Assembly (NCBI GenBank): GCA_927405585.1
Contig: CAKMJS010000134.1
Span: 1 to 64,000 of the forward strand
Length of the DNA: 64,000 nucleotides
Reading direction: 5' to 3'
Source: an uncultured Desulfosporosinus sp.
GTDB lineage: Bacteria; Bacillota; Desulfitobacteriia; Desulfitobacteriales; Desulfitobacteriaceae
Under the pieces are notes generated by a model. The model did not search any database. It had not been told where the DNA came from and saw only the letters and a list, made by a program, of their open reading frames with translations. A program made the translations under genes and the position numbers. The first letter of the stretch is position 1, and each line of letters starts with the position of its first letter. Of the stretch, positions 5,662-9,118 are shown piece after piece.

Positions 5662-6831
5662 TTGTCCAACGAGAATGTACATCGGATAGAATATGACGGT
5701 AGGCAGATCATTTTAATTGGGACAGCGCATGTCTCTAAAAAAAGTGCTGAAGAGGTTAAACTATTAATTGAAGAAGAGAAACCTGATACAGTTTGTATAG
5801 AGCTATGTGAGTCTCGTTATAAAGCAATCATGGATTCTGAACGTTGGAAAAATACCGATATTGTCAAAATCATTAAAGAGGGGAAATCTCTAATCTTATT
5901 AATTAATCTGATTATGTCTTCTTACCAGAAAAGGTTAGCCCGGCAGTTTGGGATCAAACCTGGACAAGAGATGATCCAAGCCATTGAGTCAGCGAGTGAG
6001 CATGGAGCGGTACTCTGCTTAGCTGATCGAGATATTCAGATTACCATGCGACGACTATGGAGAGGTTTAGGTTTTTGGGGAAAAGCAAAGTTATTTTATC
6101 AACTGCTCTTAAGCTTAGTGATTGACGAAGAAATCAGTGAAGAAGAACTGGAAAAAATGAAAAGCCAGGATATGTTAACCTCAGTCTTGGACGACCTATC
6201 CCAGTCTTTCCCGTCATTGAAGGCTATTATTGTTGATGAAAGGGACAAGTACCTAGCACAAAAAATTAAGGAAACCTCAGGAAATAAGGTGGTAGCTGTT
6301 TTAGGTGCAGCTCATATAGCTGGAATAAAAAAAGAGCTAGCAAATGACCAAGATTTAAATGAATTGTCCAAGGTTGCGCCGACCTCGAAGATGACAAAAA
6401 TAATTGGATGGTCAATCCCAGTCATAATTTTGGGCATTATTATTGCAACTCTTTCGGTGGATAAGGCTTCAGGAATCGATCAGATTGTAAGTTGGGTTCT
6501 CTGGAACGGTTCTTTAGCAGCGATAGGAGCATTAATTGCTTTCGCTCACCCCCTTTCTATCTTGGTTGCCTTTTTAGTCGCACCTATTAGTTCTTTAACA
6601 CCGCTTTTGGCTGCGGGATGGTTTGTAGGGCTCACAGAAGCAATCATCAGGAAACCAAATGTTCAAGACTTTGAAAATATTGCTGAAGATATTGCCACGG
6701 TTAAGGGTTTTTGGCGCAATAAAGTTACTCATATTCTCTTGGTGGTTATATTAGCTAACCTGGGAAGTACCTTCGGTACATTTATTGGAGGAGCAGATGT
6801 GATCAAACAGTTTATGAACACCTTTCAGTGA
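5662..6831 (+). CDS. TraB/PrgY family membrane protein
   Basis: A 389-residue TraB-domain protein. The N-terminal GTAHVS block and the conserved CIELCESRY segment (around residue 46) are hallmarks of the TraB/PrgY/GumN superfamily, and the HxxG-like LGAAHIAGI block lies near 216. The C-terminal third contains several hydrophobic segments, so the protein is membrane bound with the soluble domain first. PrgY relatives reduce peptide pheromone activity in enterococci and the fold is thought to be proteolytic, but the function in this organism is unknown. TTG 5662 is chosen as start with AGGAAGTG about 7 nt upstream. Confidence 0.8.
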   Translation: MSNENVHRIEYDGRQIILIGTAHVSKKSAEEVKLLIEEEKPDTVCIELCESRYKAIMDSERWKNTDIVKIIKEGKSLILLINLIMSSYQKRLARQFGIKPGQEMIQAIESASEHGAVLCLADRDIQITMRRLWRGLGFWGKAKLFYQLLLSLVIDEEISEEELEKMKSQDMLTSVLDDLSQSFPSLKAIIVDERDKYLAQKIKETSGNKVVAVLGAAHIAGIKKELANDQDLNELSKVAPTSKMTKIIGWSIPVIILGIIIATLSVDKASGIDQIVSWVLWNGSLAAIGALIAFAHPLSILVAFLVAPISSLTPLLAAGWFVGLTEAIIRKPNVQDFENIAEDIATVKGFWRNKVTHILLVVILANLGSTFGTFIGGADVIKQFMNTFQ

Positions 6832-6873: not shown

Positions 6874-7455
6874 ATGATTGATATCCTGATCATTGTCGTA
6901 GGGTACCTGCTTGGTGGAATCTCATCTGGTTATTACCTTGTCAGATTCATAAACCATGAAGATGTTAGAAAATATGGATCGGGTGCTACAGGAGCTACTA
7001 ATGTTGGTAGGATGCTTGGAGCTAAGGGCTTTATATTAACGTCTCTCGGAGATGGATTGAAAGGCTGTCTTATTCCTTTGCTGGCTATTTTTTTAGAACG
7101 CTCAGATTTAACTGTGTTTCTAGGCTTAATTGCGGTTGTAATAGGCCATGTTTGGCCGCTACAACTTGGATTCAGAGGAGGAAAGGGAGTCGCTACTGCT
7201 TTTGGAGGAATAGTTGTTATTGATCCCCAGCTGGCCCTAGTACTGTTTGCTATCACTATGGGATTATGGGCAATCACAAGAAAGTTTGCTATAAGCGGAC
7301 TTATAGTTATTCTGGGATCGCCAATCATTACCTTCTACATGTCAGGTTCGATAAATGAGATGATTGGGATTCTGAGCTTGACAATGGTACTACTTATTGC
7401 TCATAAAGAAAACATACTTAAAATGTTAGGAAAAGCAACACCTAGGAGGGATTAG
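6874..7455 (+). CDS. plsY: Glycerol-3-phosphate acyltransferase PlsY
   Basis: Integral membrane acyltransferase of about 193 residues that transfers the acyl group of acyl-phosphate to glycerol-3-phosphate, the first step of phospholipid synthesis. The PlsY signature motifs are visible: GGISSGY near the N-terminus, SGATGATNVGR (motif 1, around 37-47), and GFRGGKGVATAFG (around 107). Five or more hydrophobic helices are evident. ATG 6874 is preferred because GGAGG at 6862-6866 is 7 nt away. The next gene starts 2 nt after the stop codon, so the two are almost certainly cotranscribed, which links that fusion protein to acyl-lipid chemistry. Confidence 0.92.
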   Translation: MIDILIIVVGYLLGGISSGYYLVRFINHEDVRKYGSGATGATNVGRMLGAKGFILTSLGDGLKGCLIPLLAIFLERSDLTVFLGLIAVVIGHVWPLQLGFRGGKGVATAFGGIVVIDPQLALVLFAITMGLWAITRKFAISGLIVILGSPIITFYMSGSINEMIGILSLTMVLLIAHKENILKMLGKATPRRD

Positions 7456-7457
7456 AA

Positions 7458-9065
7458 ATGAGTCCTGGTTTAACCTTTAAACTCGCCACAGAGGACTGGG
7501 AGTTTGAGCAAATTCACGCTCTTAACTATAAAACATTTGTGCAAGAGATCCCCCAACATAGTGTTAATCCGGGGGAAAAGCTTATCGATAAGTATCACCC
7601 GGAAAATTCCTATTGTATTTGTTTACGTGATGGGAAGCTATTAGGAATGCTAGCCTGTCGGAGTAAACGTCCGTTTTCGTTAGACTCTAAACTAGTCGAT
7701 TTGGATACCTACTTGCCTCCTCACAATGCATTATGCGAGATCCGTCTGCTTTCAATAGAAAAAGAGGTTAGGGGCGGTCGAATCCTCGTAGGGTTGATGA
7801 ACACACTCTTTAAATATTGCAACGAACAGGGGTATGATTTAGCGGTCATTTCGGGAACTGTTCGACAGTTGAAATTATATAAGCATCTTGGCTTCGTGCC
7901 CTTCGGGCCACCTGTCGGGAACACTAAAGCTTTGTTTCAGCCGATGTACCTTACGCGAGAAGTAATAGTTCGGAATATCAATAGCTATTCCGAAAAGCCT
8001 GGACTAAAGCCTAGTGAAGAAGACATTGTAAACTTTCTTCCTGGACCAGTAAAGATTCATGAAGCGATTCAGCAGGCTTTTGTTAAAACTCCTGTATCTC
8101 ATCGGTCCGATGAATTTCTGAAAGATATTGCCCAAATTCAAGGAGTACTCTCTCACCTGGTAAATTCAAAAAGCGTTCAGATCCTATTGGGGTCAGGGAC
8201 TCTTGCTAATGATGTCGTAGCAGCCAAGCTTTCAATGGATAAAGGTAAAGGTCTAGTTCTTAGCAATGGAGAATTTGGCGAGCGGCTCATTGACCACGCC
8301 CGTAGGATTAGGCTTGATATTAAGGAGTACAAGACTGCGTGGGGAGATGCCTTTAACTACGAGGATCTCGAAATTACCCTTGATCAAGACCCATCCCTAA
8401 GATGGCTATGGGCTGTTCACCTAGAGACGTCTACAGGGATTCTTAATGATTTGGCTAAGCTGAAACATATCTGTAAGAAGCGAAATATTCTACTCTGTAT
8501 GGATTGTGTTAGCGCTATTGGAGCATTGCCGGTTGATCTTGCAGGAGTGTTTCTAGCCTCAGGTGTCAGTGGAAAAGCTCTATGTTCATATCCGGGGTTG
8601 TGCTTTGTTTTTTATAACCATGCTTTAAGTAGCCAAGGCCTACCTCGCTATATGGATCTAGAGTTGTATAGTAAGTCAGAGGGAGTACCTTTTACCCATT
8701 CATCCAATTTTATCTATGCTTTGCAGCAGGCACTGCGTTTGACATTGTCTAGGGATTTTTTCATTAATGCTAAGCATGCGGCTCGCTTGAGGGGTAGTTT
8801 AAGAGCTCAAAATATAAAAGTTATAGCACCGGAGGAATACGCTGCCCCCAATATTATTACCTTTGAGCTTCCTAGGTATCTTAGTTCTGAGGCGGTGGGA
8901 AAGAGACTGGAAGAGGAGGGTTACTTCCTTAGTTACCGAAGCTCCTATTTGCTTAAGCGAAATTGGCTCCAAGTTTGCTTGATGGGAGAGTATGATATTA
9001 GCGCCATTGATTCCTTTCCGTCTGTTTTGTCTCGTTGCTATGGAGATAAAGCAAAGTCTATGTAA
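7458..9065 (+). CDS. Fusion: GNAT/FeeM-like acyltransferase domain plus class V aminotransferase
   Basis: A 535-residue two-domain protein. Residues 1 to about 165 resemble GNAT-type N-acyl-amino-acid synthases (FeeM-like): an early FEQIHALNYKTFVQEIPQH segment, then EIRLLSIEKEVRGG and a YKHLGFVPFG core. Residues about 190-535 form a class V PLP aminotransferase of the alanine-glyoxylate/2-aminoethylphosphonate type: FLPGPVKIHEA, SHRSDEF, GSGTLANDVVAAKL, the aspartate in CMDCVSAIGALP, and the PLP lysine in SGVSGKAL (near 373). The domain fusion and the tight coupling to plsY suggest production or acylation of an amino compound. This is inference; neither substrate is known. Confidence 0.8.
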   Translation: MSPGLTFKLATEDWEFEQIHALNYKTFVQEIPQHSVNPGEKLIDKYHPENSYCICLRDGKLLGMLACRSKRPFSLDSKLVDLDTYLPPHNALCEIRLLSIEKEVRGGRILVGLMNTLFKYCNEQGYDLAVISGTVRQLKLYKHLGFVPFGPPVGNTKALFQPMYLTREVIVRNINSYSEKPGLKPSEEDIVNFLPGPVKIHEAIQQAFVKTPVSHRSDEFLKDIAQIQGVLSHLVNSKSVQILLGSGTLANDVVAAKLSMDKGKGLVLSNGEFGERLIDHARRIRLDIKEYKTAWGDAFNYEDLEITLDQDPSLRWLWAVHLETSTGILNDLAKLKHICKKRNILLCMDCVSAIGALPVDLAGVFLASGVSGKALCSYPGLCFVFYNHALSSQGLPRYMDLELYSKSEGVPFTHSSNFIYALQQALRLTLSRDFFINAKHAARLRGSLRAQNIKVIAPEEYAAPNIITFELPRYLSSEAVGKRLEEEGYFLSYRSSYLLKRNWLQVCLMGEYDISAIDSFPSVLSRCYGDKAKSM

Positions 9066-9090: not shown

Positions 9091-9118
9091 TTGACATAAG
9101 TAGAGAACATATTAAAAT
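9091..9118 (+). promoter_or_regulatory. Sigma-A-type promoter for the aminotransferase operon
   Basis: TTGACA at 9091-9096 and TAAAAT at 9113-9118 are separated by 16 bp, about 85 bp upstream of the aminotransferase start codon. The -35 box is a perfect match and the -10 box is one mismatch from consensus. Confidence 0.5.

Follow-up and report, generated by a model that had tools for sequence, protein, structure and literature searches.

A GNAT-aminotransferase fusion linked to a dedicated PlsY paralogue, a predicted aminolipid cassette in several bacterial phyla

The fusion gene and its two domains

To describe a candidate lipid gene pair of an uncultured Desulfosporosinus sp., a stretch of 64,000 nucleotides (contig CAKMJS010000134.1, positions 1 to 64,000; hereafter the window) was analyzed, in which a FeeM-like GNAT domain is fused to a class V aminotransferase and the fusion gene directly follows a plsY gene. 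The open reading frame of the fusion contains no internal stops, and an AGGAGG sequence lies just 5' of its ATG, within the 3' end of plsY; the gap between the two genes is 2 nucleotides (7456-7457). The features are collected in Table 1.

Table 1. Features of the plsY-fusion pair in the window (PLP, pyridoxal 5'-phosphate; pLDDT, predicted local distance difference test; AF2, AlphaFold2).
Feature	Position	Strand	Basis or remark
Dedicated PlsY paralogue, 194 aa	6871..7455	+	Start TTG 6871 or ATG 6874; PF02660
PlsY Gly143, at the aaPlsY Ser142 position	7297-7299	+	5xj5 alignment, no local gap
GNAT-aminotransferase fusion, 535 aa	7458..9065	+	ATG start; Pfam, NCBIfam, AF2
N-terminal FeeM/acyl-homoserine-lactone-synthase-like GNAT domain, residues 1-178	7458..7991	+	PF21926; AF2 pLDDT 90.9
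C-terminal class V aminotransferase domain, PhnW/AGT-like, about residues 188-535	8019..9062	+	PF00266; structural Z about 38-42
Lys373, expected PLP Schiff-base lysine	8574..8576	+	Invariant in 41/41 and in all other aminotransferases aligned
Gln505, replacing the substrate-carboxylate Arg (AGT Arg360 position)	8970..8972	+	Alignment to 1vjo, 1m32

The AlphaFold2 model of the fusion consists of a GNAT fold, a short linker of low confidence (178-186) and an aminotransferase fold. The FeeM family PF21926 matched residues 19-165 with 29.3 bits in the whole protein and 32.6 bits in the isolated domain (cut-off 27), and Aminotran_5 (PF00266) matched residues 209-391 with 39.6 bits (cut-off 21.5). 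The best NCBIfam match of the aminotransferase was PhnW-AepZ (142 bits, residues 193-523); since this match spans nearly the entire model, the domain is taken to be a whole enzyme, even though the equivalog cut-off of 360.8 was not reached. The first-pass annotation had described, from the sequence, a FeeM-like GNAT and a full PLP aminotransferase in one reading frame whose start codon lies 2 nucleotides from plsY, and each of these points was confirmed.

The fusion is a conserved family and not a chance join, because a scan in which each species was represented by one genome found relatives at 40 loci in other genomes, the mean column identity is 55% among 41 aligned homologues, GNAT and aminotransferase share a single reading frame at 64 of the 70 loci with a strong GNAT signal of this family, and each of the 45 N-domains compared is recognized by the FeeM model (E ≤ 0.01). 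The same 45 domains match PF13444, the N-acyltransferase family that includes OlsB, at the same threshold, the window copy scoring 22.0 bits at best, just below the cut-off of 22.4. The isolated GNAT model resembles the acyl-homoserine-lactone (AHL) synthase BjaI (Z 18.9, 175 residues aligned) and FeeM (Z 18.5, 165 residues aligned), and among the 50 folds listed by Foldseek the AHL synthases and FeeM had the highest query-normalized TM-scores (TMq 0.72-0.82; other GNATs 0.55-0.69). The coenzyme A (CoA)-pyrophosphate motif Q/RxxGxG/A of common GNATs, searched around residues 98-116, was found in none of the 45 domains. On profile, fold and the absent motif we favour a long-chain acyl enzyme with a putative acyl pocket.

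An ordinary acetyltransferase that detoxifies amino sugars or amines could also have become fused to an aminotransferase, the adjacency of plsY being carried by descent. This would agree with the variation of all neighbours except plsY between lineages and with the acetyl GNAT SACOL1063 (5jph; Z 18.4, 142 residues aligned), whose tie with FeeM means that the GNAT fold alone is not decisive. Such an explanation appears very unlikely, as the CoA motif is missing throughout the family and the linked PlsY belongs to a shifted subfamily that fusion-less relatives do not carry (see below). The concern of the first-pass annotation that the N-terminal half might prove to be an ordinary acetyl-CoA GNAT is thus not borne out, the tie with one acetyl GNAT notwithstanding.

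The aminotransferase model aligned with PhnW, AGT and PntC-AEPT structures at Z scores of about 38-42. It shares with PhnW/AepZ and AGT the fold, the PLP lysine and the HxETSTG motif, and Lys373 and Asp349 are invariant in all 41 aligned fusions. It differs from these enzymes in scoring far under their equivalog cut-offs and in the position of AGT Arg360, which is Gln in 41/41 fusions and in 21/21 further members (62/62 aligned). Arg occupies this position in 22 of 23 stand-alone class V aminotransferases from related genomes, which are close relatives and hence not independent. According to the available part of PMC9340776, AGT Arg360 forms a salt bridge with the substrate carboxylate; its replacement by Gln505 therefore makes two ordinary 2-oxo/amino acids unlikely as the substrate pair. 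Trp316, Asn502 and Trp503 are likewise invariant or nearly so in the fusions and different in the stand-alone enzymes.

The sole stand-alone class V aminotransferase with Gln (L082:7168-8349, genome G353) lies in a locus that, judged by eye, is apparently carbohydrate-related. Two plasmid-borne aminotransferases of Burkholderia and Cupriavidus (H3, H4) that were retrieved with good E-values have Arg in place of Gln505 and were set aside. Also discarded was PDB entry 9os7, labelled as a methionine-tRNA ligase, which had been considered as a solved GNAT-aminotransferase fusion of similar length; it is absent from the N-domain profile matches and has only the aminotransferase in common with the fusion. 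The accessible text on this structure (PMC13215547) describes a nucleotidyltransferase-like domain, an AGAT and a MetRS, with no mention of a GNAT or acyltransferase found in it.

As PhnW-AepZ is the top NCBIfam match and the closest folds include that of PhnW, the aminotransferase could be imagined to make 2-aminoethylphosphonate (AEP) for a phosphonolipid pathway. The match falls well short of the PhnW-AepZ cut-off, and AEP has no hydroxyl group for PlsY to acylate. The phosphoenolpyruvate (PEP) mutase model TIGR02320, which bears on biosynthetic AepZ only, exceeded its cut-off in 0/20 genomes carrying the unit and equally in 0/14 controls, so that the search had no positive control; matches below the cut-off were present in 8 of the 20 (best 150.7 vs 319.55 bits), with none in the genome of the window. 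The phosphonolipid reading was dropped after this search and is considered extremely improbable.

Distribution of the family and linkage to plsY

Members of the fusion family were found in Bacillota (including Desulfosporosinus), Verrucomicrobiota, Gemmatimonadota, Chloroflexota, Thermodesulfobacteriota/Dadabacteria and Hydrogenedentota, and a Cytobacillus plasmid also encodes a relative with 42.5% identity. The fusion occurs in 8 of 60 related genomes and in 3 of 398 genomes of the phylum of the window (its own genome counted in both), while a strong GNAT signal was obtained in 22/387 genomes of the phylum of L013 (Verrucomicrobia bacterium), with an adjoining aminotransferase in 19 of the 22, and in 4/395 genomes of the phylum of L035.

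Altogether, the aminotransferase adjoins the GNAT at 67 of the 70 strong-GNAT loci collected. The two are encoded by separate genes, 54 nucleotides apart, at L035, and a distant branch (L185, L186, L188 and L189, in genomes G862, G871, G930 and G1165) likewise has a FeeM-like GNAT and a PhnW-like aminotransferase as adjacent separate genes. Such arrangements support a functional link between the two enzymes beyond the fusion itself.

In L186 and L189 the gene immediately upstream encodes a MarR regulator, and another MarR gene precedes the Aas-like gene of L169 described below. In two further genomes a FeeM-like GNAT is joined in one protein with a HisC/CobD-type class I aminotransferase (L180:3962-5548 in G765; L181:4292-5995 in G785), apparently as a second, independent GNAT-aminotransferase fusion. 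L181 scores above the FeeM cut-off and L180 below it, yet above that of PF13444, and neither protein reaches the equivalog cut-off of HisC or CobD. HisC acts on an acetol phosphate and, like CobD, handles phosphorylated C3-C4 amines, so that these fusions add to the case for the pathway proposed below.

To quantify the linkage, the 67 loci with an aminotransferase were reduced to the 64 with at least 600 nucleotides of upstream sequence (L010, L011 and L168 dropped); three loci without an aminotransferase (L164, L176, L183), one with a truncated GNAT (L033) and five distant pairs, none of them with plsY, were not counted. A plsY gene lies directly upstream on the same strand in 43 of these 64 loci, namely in 10/10 of Bacillota, 17/18 of named Verrucomicrobiota, 14/17 of further genomes of the L013 phylum, 1/3 of the phylum of L035 and 1/2 of the loci without an assigned lineage. 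In several Verrucomicrobiota the two genes overlap by 4 nucleotides. One of the ten Bacillota copies counted, in the single-contig genome G435 (L083:7513-8118), has an in-frame stop in plsY with the fusion behind it intact.

Three other Desulfosporosinus have flanks outside the pair that are unlike those in the window, so that plsY and the fusion behave as a unit. Linked loci are present in both halves of the fusion tree, on which the linkage label requires at least nine changes, three of them forced by well-supported branches; this tree, like that of PlsY below, is a quick search without bootstrap, with long branches flagged. We infer a probably ancient linkage with later loss in some phyla. 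The first-pass annotation had made its reading depend on a conserved linkage to plsY, which holds over at least two phyla with a dedicated PlsY subfamily and does not extend to four others; it is thus not universal, yet stronger than could have been foreseen from the single sequence.

The dedicated PlsY subfamily

The PlsY protein of the window matches PF02660 with an E-value of 3.9e-39 (134.8 bits, cut-off 24.1) and falls below the cut-off of the NCBIfam PlsY equivalog TIGR00023 (129.3 vs 137.2 bits), and a second plsY is present in the same genome (G000:C11). A profile built on the linked PlsY proteins gave 244-262 bits in 8 of 60 relatives, exactly those with the fusion, and at most 113.7 bits in the other 52. 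Among the 387 genomes of the L013 phylum, 16 encode a linked-type PlsY scoring 159 bits or more, and all of these (16/16) have a GNAT-aminotransferase gene. The bit-score gap in this phylum is narrow, the lowest linked-type PlsY reaching 159.2 and the highest other PlsY 153.2, and PlsY proteins of 140-153 bits occur in 12 genomes without the GNAT. Three genomes with the GNAT-aminotransferase (G1065, G1057, G1227) and three with the GNAT alone had no linked-type PlsY. In G1163 the linked-type gene is located at a contig end, and the contig with the fusion breaks off 90 nucleotides upstream of it.

In a tree of 57 PlsY sequences, the 41 linked and 16 housekeeping proteins part at a single branch (SH-aLRT, the Shimodaira-Hasegawa-like approximate likelihood ratio test, 98.9), 13 of the 29 non-linked proteins having been excluded from the tree and from the residue count (the fragment L100 and twelve divergent Chloroflexota copies, L103-L114). 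Distances among linked PlsY proteins follow those among the fusions (Mantel r 0.886 over 39 pairs; 0/1000 permutations as high). By sequence, the plsY linked to the fusion thus forms a separate subfamily, distinct from the housekeeping gene. The excluded Chloroflexota copies come from genomes (G456, G460, G461, G462) that encode three to five PlsY-like proteins each, some with GGR or GGD instead of GGK.

The available sections of the PlsY structure paper (PMC5700162) assign binding of the glycerol 3-phosphate (G3P) phosphate to Ser35, Arg45, Lys104 and Asn180, and contacts with the G3P 2-hydroxyl to Ser142 and His177. We transferred these numbers through the 5xj5 alignment, in which the chain index is one higher. 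All four phosphate-clamp residues are present in the PlsY of the window, and the equivalents of Ser35, Arg45 and His177 are each conserved in 41/41 linked proteins. In contrast, the Ser142 position of the linked copies holds Gly in 31, Ala in 6 and another residue in 4, and never Ser, with a possible misalignment here in four divergent linked copies (L157, L171, L172, L174); housekeeping PlsY has Ser in 16/16, or in 19/29 if the 13 fragmentary or divergent copies are included. As the clamp and His177 are kept and Ser142 is lost, the acceptor is probably still a small phosphate ester in which a hydroxyl group is free but carbon 2 is altered, and the residue pattern fits an amino or acylamino group at this carbon.

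The order of an N-acylation followed by an O-acylation is also a known logic of bacterial aminolipids, as far as the accessible text of a review shows (PMC11631085), and the unit could be read as an OlsB/OlsA-type system in which the aminotransferase supplies an amino acid, the GNAT acylates its nitrogen with a chain that bears a 3-hydroxyl, and this hydroxyl is esterified by the PlsY paralogue. The match of all N-domains to PF13444 would be in line with this. However, such an acceptor has no need of the phosphate clamp kept in the linked PlsY, the aminotransferase has lost the residue that binds the carboxylate of an amino or 2-oxo acid, and the OlsB equivalog NF052554 gave the fusion only 14.3 bits (cut-off 350), which makes this scheme distinctly unlikely. 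In the cassette considered here, unlike OlsB/OlsA, the acceptor is apparently made by the fused aminotransferase and phosphorylated, and the O-acyltransferase is PlsY-like.

A predicted route to an amide-bonded phospholipid

Based on these features we propose that plsY and the fusion form a lipid cassette that would run parallel to phosphatidic acid synthesis on a 2-amino C3 phosphate. The aminotransferase would convert a phosphorylated C3 ketone, most likely dihydroxyacetone phosphate (DHAP), to serinol phosphate (2-amino-1,3-propanediol phosphate), as a counterpart of GpsA making G3P. The FeeM-type GNAT would acylate the nitrogen with a fatty acyl group, the donor probably being acyl-acyl carrier protein (acyl-ACP), in the role that PlsC has at the 2-hydroxyl, and the dedicated PlsY would acylate the free hydroxyl from acyl phosphate. 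With the two acylations in either order, the product would be an amide analogue of phosphatidic acid, namely 1-O-acyl-2-N-acyl-serinol-3-phosphate, or the corresponding lyso compound.

The transamination of DHAP to serinol phosphate has a precedent in the N-terminal domain of RtxA from rhizobitoxine synthesis, according to the available part of PMC3222319, and serinol phosphate made in this way is exactly the acceptor suggested by the residue changes in PlsY. Both aminotransferases are parts of fusion proteins, although RtxA is joined to a sulfhydrylase-like domain and the cassette enzyme to an N-acyltransferase; the two were compared by description only. In relation to FeeM and the N-acyl amino acid synthases, the GNAT belongs to the same Pfam family (above the gathering score) and has the same fold, whereas it is joined to an aminotransferase and coupled to PlsY, and its predicted acceptor is a phosphorylated amino alcohol instead of tyrosine. 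Similarly, the linked PlsY largely keeps the acyl phosphate and phosphate-binding motifs of acyl-phosphate:G3P acyltransferases as presented in the accessible text of PMC5700162, while its copies form a subfamily of their own with Gly or Ala at the Ser142 position in 37/41.

A dedicated pathway to an N-acylated, O-acylated amino lipid is, in our judgement, likely. The DHAP/serinol phosphate route in its exact chemistry is advanced tentatively, somewhat short of an even chance, the substrate, the chain length and donor of the acyl group and the product being deduced from the enzymes. More doubtful again, though worth stating, is the wider proposal that several phyla make amide-bonded phospholipids from DHAP through serinol phosphate, the GNAT and a re-tuned PlsY, with a product able to enter normal head-group synthesis. 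Of the acylated amino lipid or signalling molecule, built on an amine from the second domain, that the first-pass annotation had suggested, the amino lipid is well supported as a direction and remains a prediction; the evidence favours a phosphorylated C3 amine over an amino acid as its core.

Several observations weigh against the proposed pathway. At 21 of the 64 assessable loci plsY does not adjoin the fusion, with linkage in 0/5 Gemmatimonadota, 0/4 Chloroflexota, 0/4 Thermodesulfobacteriota including Dadabacteria and 0/1 Hydrogenedentota, and since four Thermodesulfobacteriota/Dadabacteria genomes carrying the fusion had no PlsY match at all, PlsY is not indispensable. Within the stretch fetched, the strong GNAT genes of L164, L176 and L183 (G1082, G992, G1230) have neither an aminotransferase nor plsY adjoining. 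The phosphate clamp is incomplete in part of the newer sample, Lys104 being replaced by Arg in 10/41 (Lys in 31) and Asn180 being changed in 12/41 (Asn in 29). Moreover, the distant GNAT and aminotransferase pairs have Glu (3) or Gln (1) at the Gln505 position, one being unaligned, and as the carboxylate of the amino donor also needs to be bound, the change from Arg to Gln could affect the donor as well. The acetyl GNAT that ties with FeeM belongs to the same side of the balance, and a downstream head-group step was not identified.

The lineages that have the fusion without a linked PlsY would also be accommodated if an N-acyl serinol or another N-acyl amine were released as a small molecule or signal, with PlsY only tuning the lipid supply or acting on a by-product. 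N-palmitoyl serinol is made by Gemella N-acyl synthases, as stated in the available portions of PMC11271093 and PMC10666787, and this product class is the point of likeness to the fusion family, which is spread over many environmental phyla and is predicted to feed a phospholipid. A dedicated PlsY with altered acceptor contacts and with distances matching those of the fusion goes beyond what a role in supply would need, and two further types of O-acyltransferase adjoin the unit, so that we consider a released N-acyl amine unlikely. In the study of human-microbiome N-acyl synthases by Cohen et al. in 2017, a Gemella N-acyl synthase is reportedly joined to an aminotransferase that would make serinol from DHAP. 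We know of no dedicated PlsY for the Gemella N-acyl serinol synthase.

The two further O-acyltransferases were each found in one locus without a linked plsY. At L035 a PlsC-like gene (PF01553) lies 4 nucleotides downstream of the aminotransferase (TIGR00530, 91.8 bits, below the cut-off of 102.95), and at L169 an Aas-type acyl-ACP--phospholipid O-acyltransferase is encoded 18 nucleotides upstream of the fusion (NF005291, 1538 bits, cut-off 1349). Including PlsY, three kinds of glycerophospholipid O-acyltransferase thus adjoin the GNAT/aminotransferase unit.

If the proposed pathway is correct, these phyla would have a class of membrane phospholipids with an amide at the 2 position, made by three enzymes that each mirror an ordinary step of phosphatidic acid synthesis. 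It would also explain why many genomes have a second plsY gene, at present labelled simply as glycerol-3-phosphate acyltransferase, and the changes of Ser142 to Gly or Ala in PlsY and of Arg to Gln in the aminotransferase yield sharp, testable predictions. Literature titles and abstract openings, in a coverage that mostly leaves out subscription journals, contained no prior description of a GNAT-aminotransferase fusion with plsY, and the word serinol does not occur in the main text, as available, of the 2024 review of bacterial aminolipids (PMC11631085).

The remaining neighbours were considered last. Upstream in the window, a TraB/PrgY-family gene (5662-6831) lies on the same strand, 39 nucleotides before plsY, and is not conserved in three other Desulfosporosinus. 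This gene and the class I aminotransferase, EamA and PrpR-like genes downstream were rejected as members of the cassette, since the flanks differ in those genomes. A promoter-like site at 9091-9118, 3' of the fusion, is of a kind at least as common in shuffled sequence. A search against PHROGs gave no match. With one protein per kind scanned, no lipid theme was seen among the neighbours in Dadabacteria/Thermodesulfobacteriota (DCC1-like), Gemmatimonadota (Lon) and Chloroflexota (aconitase, on the opposite strand). On the plasmid of Cytobacillus spongiae (L071:13631-18455), a TMEM164-family gene lies upstream of the fusion, and a gene of the lipoteichoic acid (LTA)-synthase family with a sulfatase domain overlaps its end; these two genes possibly provide head-group or transfer steps.

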